Of a DNA stretch of 64,000 nt, positions 8,892 through 64,000 are shown in pieces. Source of the DNA: Herpetosiphon aurantiacus DSM 785 (GTDB lineage Bacteria; Chloroflexota; Chloroflexia; Chloroflexales; Herpetosiphonaceae); the NCBI GenBank assembly GCA_000018565.1, contig CP000875.1:4789199-4853198 (forward strand), written 5' to 3'. A program made the position numbers and the translations under genes. The notes under the pieces are model-generated. The model was not told the DNA's origin and ran no database searches. It saw only the letters and a program-made list of their open reading frames with translations. How positions within the stretch are numbered: position 1 is the stretch's first letter; each line of letters opens with the position of its first letter.

Positions 8892-11145
8892 TTATTTATT
8901 GCTTATCGGGGCAAAAACTTGATACGAGCTGGTTAAGTGATATACGCCTACCCCGAGGGAGTTGGTTGTACCAACTTGGCTGAAGTTTCCTGCAATATAC
9001 AGATAATTTGGCGAGGTGGCAATGACGTAGACTGGCCCATTTGGGGCTTGGCTCAGCGCCTGCCATTGCGTGCCATTCCAGCGGGCGAGGTTCTGGGCGG
9101 CAATCCCATTGACGCTGGAAAAAGCGCCCCCAACATACAAATATTGATCAGTGAAGGTAGCTAAACTATAGCCATCACCATCAAGCAGGGCAATATCTTC
9201 GACCATTTGGGTTGTTAAGTTATAGCGTTGGAGCTTGCGACCATTGATCAAGTAAAAATCGCCACGCCATACGACAACTGGGTAGGATGTCAGCTGGACA
9301 GGATAGCTATTCTCCCAACTATTGAGTGTATCCCAGCTACTGCCATTCCAATGGATAAGCTGAAGTTGCGCTCTAACCACAAGCTGATAAAACTCACCAT
9401 TAACTTCAAATGGCACACAGATATCACACGCGCCAGCCACCTCGAACTCGCTGGTTTCTTCAGACCAAACGTTGCTCCGCAACCGGAGAACTCCATCGAC
9501 TGGCCTACTATACATCACGACGCTACCAGCAGACCCCAAGAGATCCTTGCCACTTGTGTTCCAGCCACCAAACCAACCACCAATGTCAATATTGGGGTTC
9601 CATGTGCGGGTAAGGCGATCCAAGCGCCAGACATTACCCCAAACCTGACGGTCAATACTCCCTTCGAAGCGCGTCGTATAGTAGACGCTATTATCTGCTG
9701 TTTTGAACAGCGTTGGAACGATCGTAGTGGTAAACGATTCTGTATTGGAAGAGCCTTGCCACAATTGACCATTCCAAAACAACACTGTCGGCGCTGCCTG
9801 CCGATCAAGATAGGTAGGCCGACTGGTTGCCCAAACATGATCTACGTCGCCAACCAGCGACACAATGCTTGGTGCTTGCCAAGCTTCACCAATCAGCTGA
9901 AGGGTTGTGCCATTCCAGCGTTCAACGGTAAAGGTACAGACAAGATTTGGGCATTGCTGATTTTCCGCTGGCAGCCCAATAATATATACATCAGAGCCAA
10001 TCGCTACTAATTGGCTAATGCTTGTGTAACTATGCGGCAGATTAACTGTTTGCCATTGATTATCCACTAGTCGAAGCACCACCCCATAGCTATCGTTGGC
10101 ATTTCCATCACCATCAGCTTGCGCCAGATAGAGCGAGCCATTAGCGTTGGTGAGTTTGGTGAATTGACCAGGCAGGCCTGTTCCGAGTTGAACCCAACGT
10201 TCATTTTGCCAGCGAAATACAAACGTTTCATTGAAATAAGATTCATTCGCCAAGAGATAAATGGTCTGATCAATACTTATTAAATTGGCCTTATAGATAA
10301 ATCCACTGGGAATGGCTGGGAGCACGAGAATTTTCCATATACCAGCTTTCCAGCTTGGGATCGTACCATATGGAACTGTTTGATTATTAAATGTTCGAAA
10401 ATCACCATGGATCATTAAGGTATCGGTACTTGCAACCGTCATATTAATCTGACCATTAGCAGAACCAAATGGGATTGCATCGGTTGCATTCCATCCAACC
10501 ACACCGTTTGCTGGTTGACCATGAAATTGAGTAAAATTGCCGCCGATGATCAGCATAGTGTTAAGCACGGTCAGGGCATTAACTGCCGTGGTCTGGGTTG
10601 GGCTATTATTAAAAGACCCTTGAAATCCGCTCCCAAGCTGCATCCAATCTGCCCCATCCCATTGCACAAGCTGGGCAAATGGTTGGCCAGCCCATGTGCG
10701 AAATGCGCCGCCTACGGTCAGCTTGTTATTAAAAAAAGCCATGCTCTGCACCCGATCAACATCAGCGCCCGAGGTTGCCAAACTATGCCATTGGCTACCA
10801 TCCCAACGAGCTAACCCATTAGCAGCGGTATTGTTGATATTGCTAAAGGCTCCGGCAATATACAAATTCTGGTCTGGGCCGACAATAGCATGGCGAATCA
10901 GCGCTGGATTGCGTAGATGGCTCGCAAGGTTGGGGTTCCATGAACCTTCAATTGGGGCACCAGCTTGTGATTTGGGATTATGCTGCAGGATGCTGATTAT
11001 GAAGCTTGTTCCATGAACCTTCAATTGGGGCACCAGCTTGTGATGAACTTGGTGGAGCCTTGGGTATTGCACGAGTTGGGGTAATCATATTCAACATGAT
11101 GATTAAGCCAAAACAGCCGATCATGCTGCGAATCGCACGAGACAT
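8892..11145 (-). pseudogene. Secreted beta-propeller protein, frameshifted by a duplication
   Basis: The body (8892 to about 10970) codes a secreted propeller made of repeats such as LYIAGAFSNINNTAANGLARWDGSQW and FTVERWNGTTLQLIG, ending in VFAPISNK. A separate frame from the ATG at 11145 codes a clear signal peptide (MSRAIRSMIGCFGLIIMLNM..) with AGGAGG six bases upstream. It reaches the same AGAPIEGSWN residues that begin the body. The two frames are separated by a 73-bp insertion created by a 37-bp direct repeat, and 73 is not a multiple of three. Removing one repeat plus the 36-base spacer restores a single protein of about 726 residues, homologous along its length to the protein at 51416-53587. 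As read, the secreted form cannot be made without slippage. Confidence 0.8.
10935..11044. repeat. 37-bp direct repeat with 36-bp spacer
   Basis: Identical 37-base copies at 10935-10971 and 11008-11044 in the 5' part of the broken propeller gene. The offset of 73 bases puts the signal peptide out of frame with the rest. The spacer is not obviously derived from nearby sequence, although it has its own short GCTGCAGGATGCTGATTATG near-repeat. Confidence 0.9.
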
Positions 11146-32309: not shown

Positions 32310-35300
32310 TTATTTAATTGTCATTGGCAGGAAGATTTGGTGAATGCCAACATCGAAGGTGCCCAGCACATCTGGCCCTTGCAACTCGCCATGATCATCG
32401 CTGGCGTAGAGTTCGATATTATAGCGACCACGCGCCGCCTCGTTGAAGGTCACGTTGAAGGTTACATTCATGCTAAAGCCAGTTGGGCCGCTGCCGGCAA
32501 AACTGCTGGCTTCAACATCAAGCTCGGCAGTGTCGCTGCTGAGGATGTTTGGAGTTTCGGCAATCGCTGTGCCGATGATATCACCCTCGCTGTTGAGCAA
32601 ACTAAATGTGCCCGAAACGCCCTCAGTAAAGCGTGCCCACAACCCAATTCCATCGGCATTGACCAAGCGTAAATCAAGGCTATCGATAATCCGCCATGGA
32701 TCGGTGGTGTGAGTCCAGCTAATCGTGAAGGTGGTTTGCAAACCTACATCTACACCGCCTGTATCGGGAGTGATGCTGCTAAATCCGACGTTATTGCGCA
32801 AAACTGCCAAATTAACGCTATTCGAATCGCCGCCGCCAGGTGTGGGATTGCGCACAATCACGCTATGATTACCCAGTGCTGTATTGACTGGCATTGAGAA
32901 ATTAATTTGAACATTATTTAAGAAGGTAGTTGGGCGTTCAATTCCATCAACAAACACCTTGGAGCTAGCAACAAAACCCGTGCCGCTGACGCTGATTTGC
33001 ACTGGCAAGCCAATTGCTTGTTGCACAAAACTATTGGGCGTAATGCTGCTGATAGTTGGCACTGGGTTGCCTGGAGCAATAATTTGGGTGCTAATTTGTT
33101 GTTGATTGTTGGCTGTAATAGGCTCATCAGCCGGCGAACTAAGCGTGCCACGGCTTGTGATCGTTCTAACTTGAGTTGGCGTAGCATTGACTACCACAGT
33201 AGCGCGGGCATTGGGCGTGAGCGTGCCAAGCGTACAACGCAAGGTCGTGGCATTGCTGAAACTACATGTGCCTTGGCTAGCACTAATATTGCCAAAACTA
33301 ACCGAGCTATCAAATGTTTGCTCGTAAATCACGCTGGTTGCGGTAATGATGCCTTGGTTGATTAAGCTCACATTGTATTGGAATGGGGTGTTGACCTGTA
33401 CCGGATCAGCCGAATCGCGCAGACTGACCGCCAAATCAACTTCGGGCTGAGTCCATTGGGCAAAGCGCTTCGATGATTTGCTGCCAGCAGCATCAAAAAT
33501 TCCACCAACAAATAGATCATCGCCGCGCACGCTCATTGCGAATCCTTTGACCGAATCGGCATTGCCAGTGCCGCCACTAATTCCGCTACCCAATGCTTGC
33601 CAAGCAGTACCATCCCAACGGGCGATATTGGTTGGGCGAGTGGGGTTAGGCTGCGAGTAGAAAAACGTACCAGCTGCATACAAATCAGTGCCACGCACTG
33701 CCAGCGTTTGAACAGTGTTGCCAATGCCAAAGCCTTGAGCCAACGGCGACCAAACCCCAGTTGTCGGGTGAACAAGGGCGATTGCGCTGGTTCCAGCCAC
33801 GCCATCAGCTAAATTGAACGAGCCACCAACCGCAATCTGGGTGCCAAATGCCGCTAACGAAAATACAATATCGTCAGTGCCACCGCGCAATGCTTGCCAG
33901 GCTGTACCATTCCAACGGGCAATATTATTGGCGCTCACGCCGCTAGCAGTGCTAAAATCACCGCCTGCAAATAACGTTCCGCTGCGGAACACCAAGGCAT
34001 GAACTGGCCCGCCAATGCCTGAGCCAAGCGCCGACCATGAATTTCCGCCGTTGGTACTGCGGGCAATATGATTGACAGTCGTACCATCGATTTGGGTAAA
34101 ATCGCCGCCAATCACAATTTCACTACCGTTGATGGCAATTGCCCGCACCGAACCATTGATACTATTGGAAATCTCAAACCATTGCTGATCACCAATATCC
34201 CACTTGGCCACGCCTGCGGTGTTGATTCCGCCAGCCTCGCTAAAATCGCCAGCAACGATCAATTGATCACTGCCAAATGGCGCAATTGCCCGCACGGTAT
34301 CATTGGTGCCATTTTCAGTTTTGCCAAATAATGGCGACCATGTGCGGGTCGTTGGGTTGAACAGCGCAATATTGTTGATCGCCTGATCGCTGGCGCGGTT
34401 GAATTCGCCACCGACAAACACGCCTGAAGCGCTGGCATGCACCGCAAATACTGCATTATCCGGCCCGCTGATTGTGCCACCCAAGGGCAAGAATTGATGC
34501 GGCTGATTGCTGCCAGTTGGCGTGGGAATAAACAAACTAACAAAACCACTCGGATTAAGTATATTGGTACTTTCACCAGTAACGAAAAATTGTTCAGTTG
34601 TGCCAATCCGTTCGATTTGGCTAATTTTGAAGGGTGAATTTGGTATAAACTGCCAGGTTGTGCCGTTCCATAGCCCCATTAAATTCCCCGTGGTTACCTG
34701 ACCGCTGGAGTTCACCAGACCAAAATAATTGCCCCCAACAAAGATTCGCCCAGGTAATTCGGCAATTGCGCGAATTTCAGAATTTGACGCAATTGGATTA
34801 AAGCCGCGGCCAGTGAAGGCTTCCCACGTATTGCCGCCGCGCCAAGCTGCCGAGCCGCCCACTGGCAAGACAACGCCTGCACTGGTGAAACTACCACCAA
34901 CCACCACAAAATTGCTGCTGCGAAAATCGACAAAGCGCACTCGACCATTTACCCCATTGTTCGTGCCAGTACCAAGGCTTTGCCAAGCATTGCCATCCCA
35001 TAAGGCGATATTGTTGGCAACCAAACCATTGGCGCTGGTAAATACCCCGCCTGCCAAAATTTGGGCCGTGTTGCTGGGATTGAAGGCTACAGCAAAAACT
35101 TGGGCATTTGTGCCTGCTAGGCCATCAGCCAAGGCGCTCCATGTGCCATTCGTCCAGCGGGCAATTCGATTGGCGCTGACCCCATCGATGCTCGTAAAGC
35201 TGCCGCCAACATACACAATATCGCCATTCGCATCGGGCACAACCACCACAGCATCGACCGAGCCATTAACATTGGTTGCTAGCGCCGACCATTGTTGGGT

Positions 35301-35732
35301 GGCAATATTCCAGCGGGCGATACTATCAGCGGCGACCCCGCCAGCACTAGCGAACTCGCCCACAGCGTAGACATTGCCGCTGGTTGAGGCATCGATCGCC
35401 TCGATTTTGGCATTTGCGCCGCTGATACCACTGCCTAGCGCAAACCAACGTTCGCCATTCCAACGGGCTACTCGTGCAGCATCGATGCCGCCGACTCGGC
35501 TAAACAACCCACCAACAAACAGATCGTTATTCAATGTTGTAATCGCATTAATCTTATTATTGGCATCGGCCACCAAATTATCGTTATTCCAAAATTGGTC
35601 GTCGGCCACCGCATTGAGTGCCGTGGGAGCCTGCAAATTTGGCTCTGATTGAGCTGCGTTGGCCTGAAATTGCGGCCAAGTGCCACCGATCACCAGCATC
35701 ACGATTGCCAAAAACTGTAGCATCCGTCGCAT
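32310..35732 (-). CDS. Secreted beta-propeller/DUF11/IPT protein, 1140 residues
   Basis: A signal peptide (about 1-27) is followed by roughly 15 repeats to about residue 800. Each reads like FVGGLFSRVGGIDAARVARW / NG.W..LGSGI, a propeller-like repeat with a conserved GG-x-F and ARWNGTAWQAL. Then comes a DUF11/CARDB-like domain (VDLAVSLRDSADPVQVNTPF), an IPT/TIG domain (ISSITPNSFVQQAIGLPVQI), and a final beta domain ending IHQIFLPMTIK. This is a large extracellular, likely surface-attached, protein; ligand or adhesion function is inferred from the plan only. It is the third propeller of this family in the window. Its message ends at the hairpin at 32245-32287. Confidence 0.85.
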   Translation of the reverse strand: MRRMLQFLAIVMLVIGGTWPQFQANAAQSEPNLQAPTALNAVADDQFWNNDNLVADANNKINAITTLNNDLFVGGLFSRVGGIDAARVARWNGERWFALGSGISGANAKIEAIDASTSGNVYAVGEFASAGGVAADSIARWNIATQQWSALATNVNGSVDAVVVVPDANGDIVYVGGSFTSIDGVSANRIARWTNGTWSALADGLAGTNAQVFAVAFNPSNTAQILAGGVFTSANGLVANNIALWDGNAWQSLGTGTNNGVNGRVRFVDFRSSNFVVVGGSFTSAGVVLPVGGSAAWRGGNTWEAFTGRGFNPIASNSEIRAIAELPGRIFVGGNYFGLVNSSGQVTTGNLMGLWNGTTWQFIPNSPFKISQIERIGTTEQFFVTGESTNILNPSGFVSLFIPTPTGSNQPHQFLPLGGTISGPDNAVFAVHASASGVFVGGEFNRASDQAINNIALFNPTTRTWSPLFGKTENGTNDTVRAIAPFGSDQLIVAGDFSEAGGINTAGVAKWDIGDQQWFEISNSINGSVRAIAINGSEIVIGGDFTQIDGTTVNHIARSTNGGNSWSALGSGIGGPVHALVFRSGTLFAGGDFSTASGVSANNIARWNGTAWQALRGGTDDIVFSLAAFGTQIAVGGSFNLADGVAGTSAIALVHPTTGVWSPLAQGFGIGNTVQTLAVRGTDLYAAGTFFYSQPNPTRPTNIARWDGTAWQALGSGISGGTGNADSVKGFAMSVRGDDLFVGGIFDAAGSKSSKRFAQWTQPEVDLAVSLRDSADPVQVNTPFQYNVSLINQGIITATSVIYEQTFDSSVSFGNISASQGTCSFSNATTLRCTLGTLTPNARATVVVNATPTQVRTITSRGTLSSPADEPITANNQQQISTQIIAPGNPVPTISSITPNSFVQQAIGLPVQISVSGTGFVASSKVFVDGIERPTTFLNNVQINFSMPVNTALGNHSVIVRNPTPGGGDSNSVNLAVLRNNVGFSSITPDTGGVDVGLQTTFTISWTHTTDPWRIIDSLDLRLVNADGIGLWARFTEGVSGTFSLLNSEGDIIGTAIAETPNILSSDTAELDVEASSFAGSGPTGFSMNVTFNVTFNEAARGRYNIELYASDDHGELQGPDVLGTFDVGIHQIFLPMTIK

Positions 35733-47725: not shown

Positions 47726-48907
47726 TCATCTTTGACAAACCGCCCAACCAATTTCAGGGCTAAGCTGTTGTTTGGCAGAATCGTAGTGTGTACCAATCAA
47801 GCCAGCCACACAGGCCAATGCTTGGTTTGAGCCATCAGGCAATTCGATTGTGATTGGTACGCGAGCTAAGCCACTAGGGAAGCGATGATTAGCAATGCCC
47901 TCACCAAGGCTTTTGCTTGGAGTTGCATCACTTTCGGCGGGTAGCTCAAATAAGTACTGAATCAGCCTTTCTTGATAGATTGCGGGGTTGTACGGCCAAT
48001 CAAGCTCGTGATCAAGTTCAGCATTTAATAGGCTTGAACGTGGTTGCTCAAACAGCGGATTGCGCAGCGTTGGCTGTTCTTTGGTATCTTTGATATAAGG
48101 AAAGAGGTCGGCAACCCAGCCCGTGACAACTTCGCCACCATACTGATCATAGGGTTTATAGAGTTGTTGCCAAAAACTGTGCGGCGGTCGGCCTTCGCTA
48201 GTCAAAATCAAGCCCTCGCAAATTGGGGCAATTCGCTCCGTCCACCAAGCCAAATCATACTCGGCCAAGCGTTCGACACGTTCGGCGATTGAGCGCCAAT
48301 CGGCAGGCGTGCCTAGCAGGGTGATATTTGGAATGCCACAAACGCAAACCGCCCCGTAATCAAAATAATGCTCAAACCTTTCCATCAACCCAATTTGGCT
48401 GGCGGTGCGGCTAATTGAGGTTGTGGTTGAAAAATCGCATTGCAAGGTTTGGGCAAGTTGGTCGGGTAATGCTTGATTGAGGAATGCTGCCCAAAGTTCG
48501 ATTGCTTGGGTCCATGCTGCTTGACTACTGAGATCATCAACCCGAATGGTGAGCTGCTTTTTAGCTTCATGGGCAACAAAACGCTGGCGCAAATGCTCAG
48601 CATGTCGGTTGACATGATTCGCAAAGCCCTGAGCGATCGTTAGCCAAAGACAATCGGGTGTGAGTACCAAGGGATAGTGCTGGCTAAAAGCAAGGTGGAT
48701 TGTTTGAATTAATGGATTATCAGTATTCGTTTTGACCAACAACTGAGCCGGATCATGGCTGGTTTGGATGAGCTGGCGTTTGATCCGAGTCGCAAATTGC
48801 GCCTGAGCAGCAACCAACTCAAACGAACTTTGATAAGGCTCAACTGCATCGACCACGAACTGAATTGAGCCATGGCTTTGGGCTAAAATTGGGGCAATTT
48901 CAGGCAT
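47726..48907 (-). CDS. DUF4419 protein
   Basis: A 393-residue soluble protein of the DUF4419 family. It has the family wording HYPLVLTPDCLWLTIAQGFANHVN and the CGIPNITLLGTPADWRSIAERVERLAEYDLAWW..RIAPICEGLI block, then WQQLYKPYDQYGGEVVTGWVADLFPYI. The function of this family, which is also found in fungi, is unknown. The ATG at 48907 has GGAGAAG upstream. A second copy with the same start (MPxIAPILAQSH) lies directly upstream, so this is a tandem duplication. Confidence 0.88.
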   Translation of the reverse strand: MPEIAPILAQSHGSIQFVVDAVEPYQSSFELVAAQAQFATRIKRQLIQTSHDPAQLLVKTNTDNPLIQTIHLAFSQHYPLVLTPDCLWLTIAQGFANHVNRHAEHLRQRFVAHEAKKQLTIRVDDLSSQAAWTQAIELWAAFLNQALPDQLAQTLQCDFSTTTSISRTASQIGLMERFEHYFDYGAVCVCGIPNITLLGTPADWRSIAERVERLAEYDLAWWTERIAPICEGLILTSEGRPPHSFWQQLYKPYDQYGGEVVTGWVADLFPYIKDTKEQPTLRNPLFEQPRSSLLNAELDHELDWPYNPAIYQERLIQYLFELPAESDATPSKSLGEGIANHRFPSGLARVPITIELPDGSNQALACVAGLIGTHYDSAKQQLSPEIGWAVCQR

Positions 48908-48971
48908 CTCAATACTTCTCCATTCAGTCAAATCGCACTTAACGATAAGCACCTAGCACAGCTAAATTTCA

Positions 48972-50116
48972 TTAATACACCGCCCAACCAATTTCAGGGC
49001 TAAGTTGATTGGTATCACGATTGTAGCCTGTGCCAATCAAGCCTGCGACTAGCCTAACCTTCGTTGCAGGTCCATCTATATGCTCGCGATAGGTTGTCGT
49101 CACTTTGGCTAAACCACTCGGAAAAATCCAAGGCGCAAGACCGCTTTCTCTGGACTCAGTTTCAAACTCCAACACCTCAGGATCAAATGGCTCTATTTCC
49201 GCCAAATTTACCAATGGTTCAGGTTGAGTTAGTTGGATTGATGGTGAGGCAAGCGGATCATCCAAAAGCTGGCGTTGGTGGGCAAGCATTGGGTTACGAC
49301 ATAACTGGCCAGGTTTACCAACTTTCTTGATATATGGAAACAAATCGATAATCCAGCCATCAATTTTGTCATCACAAAAACCACTGGTTTGATGATAGAT
49401 TTGTTGCCAGAACCTATGCGGCGGTTGACCTTCGATGGTTAAAATCAAGCCCTCGCAAATTGAAGCTAGCCGCTCCGTCCACCAGCCAAGATCAAAAGTT
49501 GCTAGCCATTTTACCCGTTCAGCGATTGAGTGCCAATCGGCAGGTGTGCCCAGCAACGTAATATTTGGAATGCCACAGATTGGCATAAAATCATAGTCAA
49601 AAAAGGCTTGAAAGCCCTCCATCAACACAATCTGGCTGGCGGTATGGGTGATTGAAGTTGTGGTTGAAAAGTCATTTTAACTAGGTTTTTAGGTAGAGCT
49701 TGCGCTAGTTGGTCGGCCCAAAACCCAATCGTATCAGCCCATGTGATCCCTTCATCAACCCGCAAGTTTTTTTTGCCTGTATGTTCAACTAAGCGTTGGC
49801 GTAATTGTTGATAGTGTTGATTTACGTGCGAACTAAAACCTTGGGCGATTGTCAGCCAAATGCAATCGGGGGTGAGCACCAGCGGATAATGTTGCCCATA
49901 GGCTAGCTCCAAACAACTCAATAATTGATGATCACTGCCCGTTCGGGCAAATAATTGAGTTTGGGTTTGCAGGGTTTTCAGTGGTGGCAGCCCTTGCCAA
50001 AGCGGCAATTCTTGGGGTTGCAAGCACACTGGCGAGCTTTGGCATGGCTCAACTGCATCGACTACAAACCGAATTGAGTCATGGCTTTGAGCTAAAATTG
50101 GGGCAATTGTAGGCAT
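48972..50116 (-). pseudogene. DUF4419 gene, second copy, frameshifted
   Basis: Paralog of the gene at 47726-48907. The 5' part (50116 to about 49680) reads MPTIAPILAQSHDSIRFVVDAVEP through YPLVLTPDCIWLTIAQGF. Near 49680 the frame is lost: the codons after V-K should continue D-F-S-T-T-T-S-I as in the intact copy, but a single missing base changes this to T-F-Q-P-Q and a stop follows. The 3' part (from about 49680 to 48972) is open and reads MEGFQAFFDYDFMPICGIPNITLLGTPADW. It is probably a pseudogene or a sequencing error; the rest is well conserved. Confidence 0.8.
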
Positions 50117-51415: not shown

Positions 51416-53587
51416 ATGCTGCCAACTCGCTCAGCACTCAGGCGGATGCTATTGTTATTGGTTATAGGGCATTTGGCAATTTTGGGTATTATCAACCGAG
51501 CGCCAATAGTTGCTGCGCATGATTCTGCTGCGCTTGTTGATTCAACTCAATTTGTGACTCTTAGCCAACCCGCGTTAAATCACCTCCAAACCACCCAAAC
51601 GATCACTGGAACGTGGAATTCACGTTTAGCTAATAACCTCAATATTCCAGGCACGATTACTAATTTGGTGTTTGCTGACGATGGCAGATTAACGGTTTTG
51701 GGCGATTTCAACTATCTGAATGGCCAATTAGTTAACGGGCTTGCCACCATGAGCCAGCAAGGCACGTGGCAAGGCTATGGGCTGCATGCTGATGATAGTG
51801 GCACGCTGGCTACGGCGGCCTACTATCACGATCAACTCTATCTTGGTGGACGGTTTAAGCGCTTAGCTGGAACGCCACTGAACGGAATTGCCCTTTGGAA
51901 TGGCACGAATTTTGCGGCTGTTGGTAGTGGGGTTAGCCGTAGCGATGCTACCACTGCTCGGGTTGGGCAATTAGGCGTGATGAGCGATACACTCTATCTA
52001 GCAGGCAATTTCAATCGCTTCAATGGTCAGCCAACGAGCGGGATTATTGGTTGGCGCAATCAACAGCTTGTGAGCATACCCAGCTATCCAATTGACGAAG
52101 TACATGGAATGAAGATCGTTGATGATCGCATGATGATAACCCATACCCATCCTGGTGAAGAGCCATATGTGGTAAGTTATGCCTTGTGGCAAAACGATGA
52201 ATGGATCGAGATGCCTTGGCCGGATTTTTCCCAACGCTATAATTTCCAATGGTTATTTGCAGGAAACGACGGTTTCTATCGTCCGATCTATAGCGATTCC
52301 AACCGCACCCATACCCAAGTACAAGTTTGGCAAACCGATCAATGGACGAATAGTATTTCAACGTCGCTCAAATTTACCTATATGAGCTTTACCCAACTTG
52401 CCAACCAGCAAATTTATGTGAGTGATAGTAAACAACTGTATCAACTTACGCCCGCTGCTTGGCAATTGGTCAACTTGCCAATGCAAATTCGCCGAATTGA
52501 CACGCTTGCTAATCGTAATAATCTGCTCTATCTAGCGGGCGATTTCACCCTCAATGGTCAACCAAGCAGCCTCGTCCGTTGGGATGGAACGCAACTTGAA
52601 TCGCTTGCCACAACCATGCGCTATGCCAATGTTGCTAGCCTTGGTGGGCAGCAAGGCAGACCAATTGCCCATACGAAAGATTTCAACCCATTCGCTAGCT
52701 ACGATCAAAAGCTTTTCACTTGGAATACGATTAGTTGGCAGCCTTTAGTGCATAAAATTACTTCGCAACCGTTCCAAGTGCTCTCGGTTGATGATCAAAC
52801 CAGCTATTTTGGCTCCGAGCACGCTATTACCACGACCAACAACATTGCGCGAAATCTGTGGCAGATTCAGTCCAATGGCACGCTGAGCGATGTCTTTGGC
52901 GCGAGCACTGCGATTAGTACTTGGACTATTTCAGGCTCGCAACTTTTAGGCAATTTGTATGGAGATTTCTTAAAAGGCGTAGTTTTGATCAATCAAGGCC
53001 AAATTAGCAATCTTGCTCCTTATACCTATCCTTTAGCTATTCGCGATCAGGTATTGATGACTGGCGATCAATTGTATGCGGTTGAGCCAAGTGGCGAACG
53101 CGGCTACTGGCACACCCACTTTAAACAGTGGGATGGGACAAGTTGGCAAGAAATTGCAATTTTGGGGATTACCGATAGTCAAAGTCGTTTGCAAATTGTT
53201 GGCTGGCGCGGCTCGCTTTACTTCCTTGAGCACAATCAGCTACGGCGTTTCAATAGAACGAGCAGTGATTTGGTTGCGACGTTTGATCAAGTGCCAAATG
53301 TCTTGGTGGCTGATGACGATGACTTTTTGTATGTTGGTGGGCCATTCGCAAGCGTTGATACTGTTGCAACTGGCACGCTAGCGCGGTGGGATGGCACAAG
53401 TTGGCAAGGCCTAGCTCAGCCAGCCAATGGCGAGGTTACCCAAATTAGTGTCAACGATCGGCATTTGTATCTTGCAGGCAAATTTACTCATGTTGGGGAA
53501 ACGCCCTCGTTGGGTGTGGCTGCACTCAGCTTTGGGCCGCCCGAAAATACAACATATCTGTGCTATTTGCCGCAGATCGTGCGTTAA
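51416..53587 (+). CDS. Secreted beta-propeller protein
   Basis: A 723-residue paralog of the broken gene at 8892-11145. A signal peptide (about 1-35) is followed by repeats such as LYLAGNFNRFNGQPTSGIIGW and FLYVGGPFASVDTVATGTLARWDGTSWQGLAQP, and the C-terminus reads CYLPQIVR. The opening TGTWNSRLANNLNIPG lines up with EGSWNPNLASHLRNPA of the broken copy, showing what that copy should look like. AAGGAG stands 7 bases before the ATG. A long hairpin terminator follows. Role at the cell surface is inferred. Confidence 0.85.
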   Translation: MLPTRSALRRMLLLLVIGHLAILGIINRAPIVAAHDSAALVDSTQFVTLSQPALNHLQTTQTITGTWNSRLANNLNIPGTITNLVFADDGRLTVLGDFNYLNGQLVNGLATMSQQGTWQGYGLHADDSGTLATAAYYHDQLYLGGRFKRLAGTPLNGIALWNGTNFAAVGSGVSRSDATTARVGQLGVMSDTLYLAGNFNRFNGQPTSGIIGWRNQQLVSIPSYPIDEVHGMKIVDDRMMITHTHPGEEPYVVSYALWQNDEWIEMPWPDFSQRYNFQWLFAGNDGFYRPIYSDSNRTHTQVQVWQTDQWTNSISTSLKFTYMSFTQLANQQIYVSDSKQLYQLTPAAWQLVNLPMQIRRIDTLANRNNLLYLAGDFTLNGQPSSLVRWDGTQLESLATTMRYANVASLGGQQGRPIAHTKDFNPFASYDQKLFTWNTISWQPLVHKITSQPFQVLSVDDQTSYFGSEHAITTTNNIARNLWQIQSNGTLSDVFGASTAISTWTISGSQLLGNLYGDFLKGVVLINQGQISNLAPYTYPLAIRDQVLMTGDQLYAVEPSGERGYWHTHFKQWDGTSWQEIAILGITDSQSRLQIVGWRGSLYFLEHNQLRRFNRTSSDLVATFDQVPNVLVADDDDFLYVGGPFASVDTVATGTLARWDGTSWQGLAQPANGEVTQISVNDRHLYLAGKFTHVGETPSLGVAALSFGPPENTTYLCYLPQIVR

Positions 53588-57947: not shown

Positions 57948-58724
57948 TTATGGATAGGGATGTTGGGTTGGTTCGGGTCGGGGCGTGCGCGTTGGCTGTG
58001 GCTGTGGATACGGATTGGCCGTCGGTTCGGGCCGAGGCGTGCGCGTTGGCTGTGGCTGTGGATACGGATTGGCCGTCGGTTCGGGTCGGGGTGTGCGCGT
58101 TGGTTGAGGCTGTGGATACGGATTGGCCGTCGGTTCGGGCCGAGGCGTGCGCGTTGGTTGGGGCTGCGGATACGGATTGGCCGTTGGTTCTGATCGTGGG
58201 GTCTGAGTTGGTTCTGGTTGCGTTCCAGTTGTAGGCTGAACGCCAGCCGTTGGTTGAATGACAAGCGTTGGTTGGCTGCCAGTGGTTGGCTGCGGATAGG
58301 GATTGACTGGTGGAATGTTGGTTGCGGTTGGCGCTGGGCGTGGCGTTAATGTTGGTTCAGGTCGGGGCGTGCGGGTCGCAACCAAGGTTTGGCTTGGAGT
58401 TGCTGGCACGGGTGAGGCGATGTTGGTTGGTTCAGGCCGTGGGGTACGGGTCGCAACTGCTACCAGCGTTTTAGTCGGCTGAGGATAGGTGGCTGGACGC
58501 GTAGGCGTGGCTACCGCAGTGGCAGTTTTAGTTTTGGTTGGTTCTGGGCGCGGCGTGCGGGTAGTTGAAGCGATCAAAGCAGTTGCCGTAGCTTGTGGTC
58601 CTGGATAGTTGCTGGAATTCTGCGTTTGTTGGGTTGTTTGGCTACAACCTGCGATTAACAATAATCCTAGACTGCTTGCGAATAGCGTTAATCGCTTGCT
58701 TGAAATCGATCGGAATTTAAACAT
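57948..58724 (-). CDS. Pro/Thr-rich repeat lipoprotein
   Basis: A 258-residue lipoprotein (LLLIAGC lipobox, Cys about 25) whose mature part is almost wholly P/T/R/A/Q residues. The C-terminal third is four copies of an 18-residue unit (PEPTANPYPQPQPTRTPR). It has no recognisable domain and looks like an extended, possibly glycosylated stalk. AAGGAG stands six bases before the ATG. A similar but non-homologous Pro/Thr protein lies next to it. Confidence 0.8.
   Translation of the reverse strand: MFKFRSISSKRLTLFASSLGLLLIAGCSQTTQQTQNSSNYPGPQATATALIASTTRTPRPEPTKTKTATAVATPTRPATYPQPTKTLVAVATRTPRPEPTNIASPVPATPSQTLVATRTPRPEPTLTPRPAPTATNIPPVNPYPQPTTGSQPTLVIQPTAGVQPTTGTQPEPTQTPRSEPTANPYPQPQPTRTPRPEPTANPYPQPQPTRTPRPEPTANPYPQPQPTRTPRPEPTANPYPQPQPTRTPRPEPTQHPYP
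57965..58190. repeat. 54-bp tandem repeat, four copies
   Basis: Copies at about 57983, 58037, 58091 and 58145 (counted from GCGTGCGC) with exact 54-base spacing inside the lipoprotein gene. Differences between copies are mostly synonymous. Confidence 0.9.
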
Positions 58725-58937
58725 TGAATACTCCTTCACCAAAATAGTATTGCTATTGAGAGAAACGAAGTATTCAATCAATCGATATGTGAATTTTACA
58801 GTTCTTTAGTCCTATATTCTTGGCATTTAATTATTACTACTCGTATAAAATATTAAAAGTACTTATTTAATCTTTAGTCCTATTTTTGTAGCTAGAGCAG
58901 CGAGATCAATATGTAATCTGGCTGCTCTATAATTTAA
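58725..58937. other. AT-rich intergenic region
   Basis: About 210 bases between the two Pro/Thr-rich genes, unusually AT-rich, with no gene. It may hold the leftward promoter for the lipoprotein. Confidence 0.4.
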
Positions 58938-59486
58938 CTAAAGTGTAGGAGTTGGCGTTTTTGTTGCTTCAGGGGTGCGGGTTGGCCAAGGTGTACGCGT
59001 TGCCTCGGGCGTGCGGGTGATCGGCAAGCGGGTAGCTTCGGGCGTGCGCGTTGCCAATGGAGTGCGAGTAGCAAGTGGGGTTGGCCAAGGTGTACGAGTA
59101 GCTTCGGGCGTGCGGGTGATCGGCAAGCGGGTAGCTTCAGGGGTGCGGGTTGGCCAAGGTGTACGAGTGGCCTCGGGCGTGCGCGTTGCCAATGGAGTGC
59201 GAGTAGCAAGTGGGGTTGGCCAAGGTGTACGAGTGGCCTCGGGCGTGCGAGTGATTGGCACACGAGTTGGGCGGGGTGTGCGGGTGATTGGCACATGAGT
59301 TGGGCGGGGTGTACGAGTGACAAACGGCACGCGAGTCCGGGTTGGCATTGGGTATGGATTATCGACACCATGGTCTAAGGGGCTGGTTTTGCCGCTGGCT
59401 TGGCTCAACCCTGCAAACATAAAAATGATTACAAGGCTGGCAAGCAAGATTTTGAAACGCCATTCGTTGGTTGGTTTTGCTGACAT
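58938..59486 (-). CDS. Secreted Pro/Thr-rich repeat protein
   Basis: A 182-residue protein with an N-terminal signal (about 8-32, ILLASLVIIFMFAGLSQASG) and no lipobox. The remainder is built of TRTPEAT, TRTPWPT, TPLATRTP and RLPITRTP units. AAGGAG stands six bases before the ATG at 59486. Together with the neighbouring lipoprotein and the sigma factor upstream it may form an envelope gene group. Function unknown. Confidence 0.75.
   Translation of the reverse strand: MSAKPTNEWRFKILLASLVIIFMFAGLSQASGKTSPLDHGVDNPYPMPTRTRVPFVTRTPRPTHVPITRTPRPTRVPITRTPEATRTPWPTPLATRTPLATRTPEATRTPWPTRTPEATRLPITRTPEATRTPWPTPLATRTPLATRTPEATRLPITRTPEATRTPWPTRTPEATKTPTPTL
58975..59255. repeat. 135-bp tandem repeat in the Pro/Thr-rich gene
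   Basis: The segment starting GCCAATGGAGTGCGAG occurs at 59053 and 59188, exactly 135 bases (45 codons) apart, with shorter degenerate GCGGGTAGCTTCGGGCGTGC-type units throughout. Confidence 0.85.
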
Positions 59487-59593
59487 GGGTGGCTCCTTCT
59501 GTTGCGATTCTGCTAGGTAAAACGTGAGGAGTGCTTTTTCGCTATGGCTTGCTGATAGACCATTAGTCCTATTCTCTCTTGGAAAGGTTTTCA

Positions 59594-60211
59594 TCACATG
59601 CTAAATTTAAACAGCGGCTCTTTTTCACCAAGATACCATTGCCGAAGCTCGGTTGAGCGAGCAAGGGTATGCAGGGCACGATATTGCAACGATTTGACCG
59701 CATATTCCGTTCGACCAGTATAGGCAGCGACTTGGGCACTGGTGTAGTGGGCAAAAAAGCGTAGGTACACTACCTCACGTTGATCGGGCGTGAGCGCGGC
59801 TAAAGCATGGACTAACGATGCTTGAATTGCGTGTAATTCGCTAATTGCGGTTGGATCAGAGTTGGCCAGCGCGGTTGCCTCGTTGAGTGGTTCATAGGCT
59901 TGACGCTGGCGTTGGCGATAACCATCGGTGAGCAGATGCCGCGCAATTTGAAAAAGCCAGCCAGTAAAGGCCAAATCAGCATGCTCGAGCGGCAAATTGA
60001 AGTGTGGCAGATGCTCCACCACCCGCAACCATAGTTCGCTACTCAACTCCTCAGCCAGATCAGCACTGCTGCAATGAGCATAGAAAAAGCGCAGCAAGGC
60101 ATTGCGATAATGCTCATAGATTTGGACGAACGCGCCTCGGTCGGCCTGTTTGGCAGCGATCAGCAGGGGAATCAGCGCAGCATTAGCCAATGTGTTCATA
60201 CATGTGCCCAT
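59594..60211 (-). CDS. ECF-type sigma-70 family RNA polymerase sigma factor
   Basis: A 205-residue alternative sigma factor. Region 2 is FVQIYEHYRNALLRFFYAHC..AEELSSELWLRVVEHLPHF..AFTGWLFQIARHLLTDGYR. Region 4 is LAALTPDQREVVYLRFFAHYTSAQVAAYTGRTEYAVKSLQYRALHTLAR, with the helix-turn-helix. Length fits an ECF factor. No anti-sigma gene lies beside it; the downstream neighbour is the secreted Pro/Thr-rich protein. A second ATG four codons later (60199) is possible; the RBS is weak for both. Confidence 0.9.
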   Translation of the reverse strand: MGTCMNTLANAALIPLLIAAKQADRGAFVQIYEHYRNALLRFFYAHCSSADLAEELSSELWLRVVEHLPHFNLPLEHADLAFTGWLFQIARHLLTDGYRQRQRQAYEPLNEATALANSDPTAISELHAIQASLVHALAALTPDQREVVYLRFFAHYTSAQVAAYTGRTEYAVKSLQYRALHTLARSTELRQWYLGEKEPLFKFSM

Positions 60212-60365: not shown

Positions 60366-61415
60366 TCAATTGCTGGCAATCGGCAGATAGATCCGCCAAT
60401 ATTGGCTTTGTTGGCTCAAAAATAGGCTATTGGCGCTATTCCAATTGCTGGCAAGGTAATTATCGGCGGCTGGGTTGGTATGAAAATAATCATCATTGCC
60501 ACAATCGAAAATATCACGAATGCTATGCTCAGGGCAGGCGATTTCTAAATCTGGATACGACGGTGCATCGGAGTAGCACATAATGTCCCATTCATCGGTG
60601 CAATGCCAACTCTTGGTGGTATGCGGCGCACTTGGCTGAACTCCACCAATCATATGCATATGTTCGTGAGCGACTACGCGAGCATTCCAACAGCCAGCAT
60701 CAATCCGGGCATAGGCTACGCTATGGTTATTTAAATTGGCACTGCTTGGTTGCGTATCGTGCTGCACCGTGGCAATCCCACAGTAATAGCGGGCTTCAAC
60801 AAACATCACATATTTACGATCATCACGATTGAAGCCTTGGGCCACCACGGCATTGATCGTTGCGCCAAAATCATCATCGGCTGCTGGCGGAATAACCACA
60901 TGCTGCACGTCAATTTGGCAGGCTTGGTTAAGTTGCCAACGAATATGGCGCTGACCACCAGTTAATTGGGCACTTTGGTTATAGATTTCGTTTACACCCA
61001 ATAAATGCTTGCGTAAAACGGGCGCGATGATCGAGCTATTATCTTGGGCATCGCTAGCCCGCACATATAAAACTTGAGTTCGATAGTCGTTGGTACTATC
61101 GTCAAGGCAAGGTTGGGATGATTGCTCTATTGACAAATGCATTTGATTGTTAGGATAAAATAATTCTTCAGCCCAACTTTTAGCCATTTGAGGTTCAGGC
61201 GAATCAGGGCCATGGGTGCATAAATCCGTAGTTTTCACGCGGAACATCGCCCGACATTTACCCGTATCTTCCCATACCAAATTTGTATAATAAAGATTCA
61301 GCCAAGGCTGATCGATAAAGCGGCGAGTTGAGGTACTCGTGGTTGCTTGTGATGATGTTGGAATCAATAAGATTGCCACGATTAATAATGTGAATAGTGA
61401 GCTTGAACGATTCAT
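60366..61415 (-). CDS. Secreted metzincin-like metalloprotease
   Basis: A 349-residue secreted protein. Signal peptide about 1-25, then a domain with several Cys pairs. The zinc motif is HEHMHMIGG (H250, E251, H254), followed by SAPHTTKSWHCTDEWDIMCYSD, which contains the Met-turn (Met about 279). In classical metzincins the third ligand is His or Asp at the position HExxHxxGxxH, but here it is Gln, so a His further on may serve. The C-terminus ends IYLPIASN, like the propeller proteins. GGAGG stands five bases before the ATG. Protease activity is inferred. Confidence 0.8.
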   Translation of the reverse strand: MNRSSSLFTLLIVAILLIPTSSQATTSTSTRRFIDQPWLNLYYTNLVWEDTGKCRAMFRVKTTDLCTHGPDSPEPQMAKSWAEELFYPNNQMHLSIEQSSQPCLDDSTNDYRTQVLYVRASDAQDNSSIIAPVLRKHLLGVNEIYNQSAQLTGGQRHIRWQLNQACQIDVQHVVIPPAADDDFGATINAVVAQGFNRDDRKYVMFVEARYYCGIATVQHDTQPSSANLNNHSVAYARIDAGCWNARVVAHEHMHMIGGVQPSAPHTTKSWHCTDEWDIMCYSDAPSYPDLEIACPEHSIRDIFDCGNDDYFHTNPAADNYLASNWNSANSLFLSQQSQYWRIYLPIASN

Positions 61416-61496
61416 AAACGCCTCCATTTGTTTTACTCTACCTGAGATAGAGCCACAATGGAGGCATTTTGGGCGGGTACTACGGCAAAAATCACC

Positions 61497-63269: not shown

Positions 63270-64000
63270 TTAGCGAACTTTGGGCAGAACCCAGCGTTGA
63301 ATCCGACGATTGGCTTTTTCGCTGACATAGACGCTGCCATCAGGGGCGAAGGCCATACCGCTGGGTTGGCCAGTTGAGGCATCGTCGTTGCCTTGGCCAC
63401 CCCAAACCAGCAGCAATTGGCCAGTTGCTCCATACAACGCAACTTGGTTTTTGCTCGGAATAGCCGCCGCCACCCGACCTTGGCTATCAACCGCAATAAA
63501 TGGGTCGAGGTAGGTATCGGTTTGCCAGCCAGCAACTGGCCATTGCACGCTTGGTACGCCTTGTGGCACGCCATTGGCATCAAGTGGGAACACCTGAATT
63601 CGGCCATTCCAAGTATCGCCAACATATAAATTGTTGTTGGCAATGCCCAAGCCAATTGGCTCGTTGAATTGACCGATGCCTGCGCCAGCAGTGCCAACTT
63701 GGCCTAGATAATTGCCATCAGTATCGGTGACAACCACCCGTTTGTTGCCAGTGTCGGCGATATAGACGCGGCCAGCACTGACTACCAAGTTGCGCGGGCC
63801 AAAGAAGCCCAGTGGATTGGCGCTATTGCCCTCAGTTGTGCCGCCAGTGCGGGTCAAACGCTTGCCTGAACCAGGTTGTAATTCTTCGCTGCCGCTACCC
63901 CAACTGGTGACGAAATTGCCTTGAGGGTTGAACTTGGCAATGCGGGCATTCCAGGTATCAGCAACATAGACGAAGCCCTGTTCATCGACCGCAACGCCCG
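63270..64000 (-). CDS. NHL-repeat beta-propeller protein, partial
   Basis: The C-terminal part of a larger protein; its start lies beyond the right edge, and the frame is open to the last base. Repeats such as GVAVDEQGFVYVADTWNARI, RNLVVSAGRVYIADTGNKRVVV, GLGIANNNLYVGDTWNGRIQVF and GMAFAPDGSVYVSEKANRRIQRW are typical NHL repeats. The repeats build a blade of a six-bladed propeller. It differs in type from the GG-x-F propellers elsewhere in the window. Localisation cannot be judged without the N-terminus. Confidence 0.88.
   Translation of the reverse strand, partial: GVAVDEQGFVYVADTWNARIAKFNPQGNFVTSWGSGSEELQPGSGKRLTRTGGTTEGNSANPLGFFGPRNLVVSAGRVYIADTGNKRVVVTDTDGNYLGQVGTAGAGIGQFNEPIGLGIANNNLYVGDTWNGRIQVFPLDANGVPQGVPSVQWPVAGWQTDTYLDPFIAVDSQGRVAAAIPSKNQVALYGATGQLLLVWGGQGNDDASTGQPSGMAFAPDGSVYVSEKANRRIQRWVLPKVR

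Follow-up and report, generated by a model that had tools for sequence, protein, structure and literature searches.

A short C-terminal tail on unrelated exported proteins of Herpetosiphon aurantiacus: the YLP box as a putative surface-retention tag

The locus

The window, meaning the whole stretch of 64,000 nucleotides from Herpetosiphon aurantiacus DSM 785 that was analysed, encodes four proteins whose ends were proposed in an earlier note to share a motif. Read from the DNA, these proteins end in YQVFAPISNK (8892), HQIFLPMTIK (32310), YLCYLPQIVR (51416) and WRIYLPIASN (60366), in exact agreement with the four termini VFAPISNK, IFLPMTIK, CYLPQIVR and IYLPIASN given there. The 8892, 32310 and 60366 genes lie on the minus strand and the 51410/51416 gene on the plus strand. 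The features are the following, with scores from the C-terminal weight matrix described in the next section.

8892..11072, minus strand: propeller body, homologue of the protein at 51416-53587, without an in-frame signal peptide as sequenced
8895..8918, minus strand: divergent YLP-box tail VFAPISNK (matrix score 9.4)
10935..11044, minus strand: 37-nt direct repeat with a spacing of 73 (copies at 10935-10971 and 11008-11044)
32310..35732, minus strand: secreted propeller protein with DUF11 and choice-of-anchor Z domains
32313..32336, minus strand: YLP-box tail IFLPMTIK (matrix score 21.8)
51416..53587, plus strand: secreted propeller protein
53561..53584, plus strand: divergent YLP-box tail CYLPQIVR (matrix score 8.1)
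60366..61427, minus strand (start at 61427 or 61415): putative secreted metalloprotease of the HExxH type, with an N-terminal hydrophobic segment called by a crude predictor
60369..60392, minus strand: YLP-box tail IYLPIASN, immediately 5' of the stop (matrix score 17.4)

The 60366 protein matched no Pfam family, and an HExxH-type motif, HEHMH, can be recognised in it by eye. The tail of this family is kept in all five of the other Herpetosiphon genomes in which it was found. The last residue of these orthologues can be N, D or H, and a strict rule of a terminal basic residue was dropped on this ground.

The description of the four proteins as otherwise different is right in that both propellers and a protease are present. 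It fails in that propellers make up three of the four and two of these are homologous, at 27% identity; the four ends are therefore not four independent cases. Homologues of the protein at 51416-53587 end in YLPQVVR, FIPQASK, IYLPLLFR and VYLPLIVR, and the structure model of the protein itself was too poor to use (mean pLDDT 54.6, three sequences). Its window homologue had been taken as an intact gene at 8892-11145, but it is not a single open frame and is interrupted at the 5' end. A plausible signal peptide, MSRAIRSMIGCFGLIIMLNMITPTRA, starts with the ATG at 11145 but is in a different frame from the propeller body, a displacement attributed to the 37-nt direct repeat with its spacing of 73. 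A late membrane helix was looked for in all four window proteins and found in none, in agreement with the earlier note.

Elsewhere in the window, two neighbouring exported proteins on the minus strand (57948-58781 and 58938-59597) consist mostly of Thr/Pro/Arg repeats (TPRPEPT-like) and have no tail; the former looks like a lipoprotein. The NHL-repeat protein at 63270-63857 (minus) has no predicted signal peptide and ends in RWVLPKVR, which fits the loose wording of the earlier note and is probably a chance match. The adjacent related frames at 47726-50116 (minus), namely 47726-48952 and 48972-49628 with 49622-50116, look like a duplicated gene with one copy split.

Bias towards the C-termini of exported proteins

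The genomic sample, 2.06 Mb in all, comprised the window and a further 2.0 Mb from the genome of H. aurantiacus, with 1727 genes called by script. Gene and signal-peptide callers were crude custom scripts, and a crude sorting of the proteins gave 207 secreted, 415 membrane and 1105 others. With a C-terminal weight matrix, in which a score of at least 9 is called a tail, the tail is present in 29/207 predicted secreted proteins, 1/415 membrane proteins and 3/1105 others, a comparison that is partly circular, since secreted hits had served to train the matrix, and in which the three matches of the last class include 8892. The 51554 protein (score 8.1, just below 9) falls into the same class due to a start trimmed by the caller. 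Shuffled ends reached a score of 9 in 0.3 secreted, 0.3 membrane and 0.8 other cases. Among 79,973 scoring windows in secreted proteins, 31 reached at least 9, and 29 of these lie within 8 residues of the C-terminus.

Given the training on secreted hits, the fair tests are the split-half comparison, which is independent, and the pattern of the earlier note outside the window. With the first megabase used for training and the second for testing, the tail was found in 10/105 secreted, 1/191 membrane and 1/521 other proteins (p=4e-8). The narrow pattern [YF][LA]P...[KRN]$, run over the 2.0 Mb without the window, matched 9/203 secreted, 0/397 membrane and 1/1077 other proteins. The motif is commoner in secreted than in other proteins, as anticipated, and a C-terminal motif shared by unrelated exported proteins is real.

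The fuller motif can be written as [VIL]-[YFW]-[LM]-P-h-[AVIT]-x-[KR] followed by 0-4 residues. In the 33 tails of this genome it takes the form [VIL]-[YFW]-[LM]-P-x-[AVIT]-x-[K>R], and two positions upstream of the first V/I there is often an aromatic residue. The residues between box and stop number 0 (16 tails), 1 (4), 2 (11), 3 (1) or 4 (1). Tag loci of other genomes (n=37) give the sharper V-[YF]-L-P-[LMI]-[VI]-x-R, directly at the stop in 36/37, a sharpness that is partly selection because the loci were fetched with a similar pattern. One relative from another family carries two consecutive YLP boxes (YAYLPIVVKPAMVYLPIIQR; locus L118). In the model of a tagged GH9 protein (mean pLDDT 77), the last helix spans residues 870-889 and the tail has no regular structure (pLDDT 57 over the last ten residues), as would be expected of an exposed tag.

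Proteins that carry the tail

Judged by sequence, the tagged bodies are mutually unrelated and comprise proteases, glycosidases and propellers. Pfam matches identify peptidases of the thermolysin (M4), reprolysin, trypsin-like, M23 and C25 types, as well as GH8, GH9, kelch, LVIVD, FG-GAP, sorbosone dehydrogenase, beta-helix, SdrD-type repeat and other bodies. A lipobox is present in 1/34 tagged and 64/178 untagged secreted proteins (p=3e-5), the tagged set omitting one membrane-class protein (1300871, score 8.2). The exclusion is not absolute: a protein of another genome (L239_10) is by eye a lipoprotein with a tail, and the tagged GH9 of H. aurantiacus carries a lipobox-like LGC. A Thr/Pro/Ser-rich stretch precedes the end in 7/34 tagged and 0/178 untagged secreted proteins (p=2e-6).

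One region of the genome (G000:C1:409107-418110) holds a tandem array of related tagged proteins, three of them intact-looking and one split in two frames, with P-domain and pre-peptidase domains in the single member scanned. An HtrA-like gene at 418341 comes after this array. Such a gene stands near tags in one further place (L228), which was taken as coincidence.

Exchange of the tail for other ends

The ends of GH9 relatives were compared across 36 loci. Three named Herpetosiphon species have the catalytic domain followed by QYLPLVTK or QYLPLITK, and the relative from an Ardenticatenaceae metagenome-assembled genome (MAG) ends in FSYVPLVLTTSP. A C-terminal membrane helix is found in the GH9 proteins of two Anaerolineae MAGs, one Ruminococcus and one Eubacterium, and by eye in further Ruminococcus and Lachnospiraceae sequences; in Nocardia and Cellulomonas a CBM2 domain occupies the position of the tail. 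The Streptomyces and Caulobacter homologues end flush, without any attachment part, and the tail therefore need not stand in for an anchor. In the two Anaerolineae MAGs that encode the helix-anchored enzyme, the strict DNA pattern of the tail matches 0 and 0 times (2 and 1 for the reversed control), and the Ardenticatenaceae MAG has 9 against 1 reversed.

Similar exchanges occur in the genome of H. aurantiacus itself, where one GH8 protein has the tail and its tandem neighbour a CBM2, and a paralogue of the 60366 family carries ricin-type lectin repeats in place of the tail. The YLP box is C-terminal in exported proteins, modular, nearly exclusive with the lipobox and swapped for attachment parts.

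The YLP box in NCBIfam and across genomes

The tail was already catalogued before this analysis. NCBIfam release 20.0 holds two models, NF050076 (sort_motif_YLP) and NF053834 (ultrashort_CTERM), both described as 'YLP-box putative sorting motif'. They share with the present tails the position and the core of Y-L-P, a hydrophobic pair and R/K, and their matches in tagged proteins of this order lie precisely at the C-terminus; the Herpetosiphon tails differ in favouring K and in allowing W/F and 0-4 trailing residues. Neither model reported any of the four window proteins at E up to 10, in a search where HMMER filters may hide weak matches. In full-length scans, three of eight proteins were reported at all, with NF050076 scores of 14.3, 12.9 and 13.2, below its cut-off of 15. 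Among four 60366 orthologues scanned, L166 passes both models (NF053834 16.7, cut-off 10; NF050076 15.8, cut-off 15) and L164 passes NF053834; among six propeller homologues, L193 passes both. Since the window tails go unreported and some homologues of their proteins pass, the finding concerns divergent, unlisted members of a catalogued motif.

Over the whole genome of H. aurantiacus, NF050076 exceeds its cut-off at 7 places and passes in 2/14 control genomes. The 14 matches for NF053834 say little, because this model passes in 11/14 controls. No paper on the YLP-box tail was found among the literature matches listed (open-licence PMC papers).

Of 301 Chloroflexota genomes, 62 contain matches to the strict DNA pattern, although single matches may be noise, as the pattern admits TGG as well as a stop. 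The 29 genomes of the order, H. aurantiacus included, give 210 matches against 3 for the reversed pattern. Elsewhere in the phylum scattered families are positive and most others have none; in 25 genomes of other phyla the pattern stays at background (6 matches against 7 reversed). A 200-kb stretch was taken arbitrarily from G158, a genome in which the pattern matches 14 times, and contains 0/10 tagged secreted proteins; 200 kb of another genome (G168) contains 2/16. The supposition that the tag is peculiar to one lineage is too narrow in this respect, as it is spread over several families of the phylum.

Candidate machinery

Candidate enzymes were compared between panels of 29 tag-bearing and 20 tag-poor genomes, hand-picked from genome-wide pattern counts. 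Five sortases exceed the cut-off in H. aurantiacus, and a sortase is present in 28/29 tag-bearing and 16/20 tag-poor genomes (p=0.08). The tagged genome G168, 97% complete, yielded no sortase (0 candidates). Sortase was rejected as required machinery, since G168 has tails without it and it does not track the tail. No exosortase was found in H. aurantiacus, and one occurs in 2/29 tag-bearing genomes, over its cut-off in 1/29; being nearly absent from these genomes, exosortase was likewise rejected. By eye, no enzyme common to tag neighbourhoods was seen among the matches listed for the H. aurantiacus loci and 20 tag loci elsewhere.

The only candidate that tracks the tail in these data, and the best lead, is a putative gingipain/PorU-type peptidase of family C25. 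It is present in 27/29 tag-bearing and 2/20 tag-poor genomes of the hand-picked panel, the tag-bearing genomes lacking it being G037 and G281. Over the 301 genomes, a C25 match below 1e-20 is found in 29/34 of those with at least 2 pattern matches and 12/267 of the others, and collapsed by family the figures are 9/12 and 3/69. Large secretomes could explain this correlation, C25 being the only secreted-protease family profiled over the phylum. All three C25 proteins with readable ends (1905573 of H. aurantiacus, L240_2 and L235_4) are themselves tagged, and the first has by eye a plausible His-Cys pair (H715, C756). The co-occurrence is compatible with C25 as the enzyme or as mere cargo.

In 7/7 Herpetosiphonaceae genomes of the panel, a C25 gene encoding about 1020-1110 aa and a sortase gene are no more than about 1 kb apart. 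The pair is found at G000:C1:5931505-5933870 in H. aurantiacus and also in G274, G078, G102, G034, G043 and G070.

Probable retention at the surface and alternative explanations

The reading preferred here, held at a probability of about two in three, is that the YLP box is a putative post-Sec surface-retention tag on otherwise unrelated exported proteins. It would consist of about eight C-terminal residues, without a membrane helix, on proteins whose export depends on an N-terminal signal peptide. Once the protein has passed Sec, a factor outside the cytoplasm would bind or process the tail, which in some proteins is placed on a linker, and the tagged protein would thereby be kept on the envelope, plausibly in outer or S-layer-like filament layers. 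The swap of the tail between homologues for a C-terminal membrane helix, a CBM2 or a ricin-type lectin appears to count for retention. Counting against this reading are the exceptions to the lipobox exclusion, the GH9 homologues that end flush, the G158 stretch devoid of tagged proteins, the listed tag neighbourhoods in which no common enzyme was seen by eye, and the two tag-bearing genomes that lack C25. In the filamentous Chloroflexota Litorilinea, a common outer layer and an S-layer-like protein layer surround the whole filament, according to passages of a published study (PMC13319060). Such a layer would be a natural target for a retention tag, and the YLP box may be linked to it. The idea of a sorting or anchoring tag, as first put forward, appears supported at the sequence level by the modularity of the tail, its near-exclusion with the lipobox, its interchange with attachment parts and the NCBI label of a putative sorting motif.

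An unlikely alternative is that the tail is a signal for release or outward passage, which would bring proteins through the outer layers to the medium instead of holding them on the cell. Export, C-terminal position and the lack of a membrane helix fit this equally, the tagged proteins include several degradative enzymes (M4, reprolysin, GH8, GH9), and a published tomogram of a relative, as described in passages of its source, has layers outside the peptidoglycan (PMC13319060). The linkers before some tails and the replacement of the tail by a membrane helix or binding domains fit retention better. A tail without any sorting role, acting as an element of folding, stability or protease resistance in secreted proteins, has rather poor odds. 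Its alternating aromatic and hydrophobic residues do resemble a short strand, but it ends unrelated folds, sometimes behind Thr/Pro/Ser linkers, it is an unstructured extra beyond the last helix in the GH9 model, and GH9 homologues exist without it.

That the tail is a sortase substrate, a variant of LPXTG without its helix, is very improbable: the LP core and the five sortases of H. aurantiacus would suit it, but the tails of G168 occur without sortase, the panel counts do not separate, and two separate LPXTG-like ends with a membrane helix were seen by eye among four sequences listed. Resemblance of the four proteins by chance or through shared ancestry, a reading to which the homology of two window propellers would lend itself, is refuted by the class bias with the split-half test, the order-wide excess over the reversed pattern and the unrelated bodies.

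The YLP box can be set beside the known tag systems. It resembles the LPXTG/sortase system in its C-terminal position, behind Pro/Thr-rich linkers and on unrelated bodies, but neither a membrane helix nor a basic tail follows the YLP box and sortase is not required. The PEP-CTERM/exosortase, MYXO-CTERM and GlyGly-CTERM tags, which contain a membrane helix, are likewise short C-terminal tags on varied exported proteins; for PEP-CTERM, the scarcity of exosortase over its cut-off in tag-bearing genomes marks a difference. Type IX secretion shares with the YLP box a tag without a membrane helix and C25 peptidases among the tagged proteins, and one tagged protein resembles PorU (E 5e-56). PorU itself is said to be tagged. 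The type IX tag, the C-terminal domain (CTD), is folded and spans about 80 residues, and the system needs an outer membrane. The CTD domain TIGR04183 was found in none of the four window proteins, and in one tagged relative it is internal (838-874 of 1024) and not C-terminal. The YLP tail, in contrast, has about 8 residues, and according to passages of the same study (PMC13319060) the Chloroflexota are regarded as monoderm, clear evidence of an outer membrane being absent.

By analogy, filamentous Chloroflexota might possess a PorU-like sorting system that works without an outer membrane, in which a tagged C25 peptidase would recognise the YLP box after Sec export and join proteins to an outer or S-layer-like layer, and to which the C25-sortase pair of the Herpetosiphonaceae may add a branch. 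This proposal is speculative and, as it stands, improbable.

Significance for the Chloroflexota envelope

To the existing catalogue entry are added the evidence for modular exchange, the near-exclusion with the lipobox, the case against sortase and exosortase, and C25 as a lead. On the practical side, the window proteins escape the curated models, and the genome has only 7 places at which NF050076 passes. Roughly one in seven predicted secreted proteins carries the tail in the part of the genome sampled (29/207). The tail would predict surface proteins, can be swapped or deleted, and comes with one candidate enzyme family, C25. For the placement of proteins in the envelope of Chloroflexota, which has several layers and is thought to be without an outer membrane, the tail would offer a direct handle.
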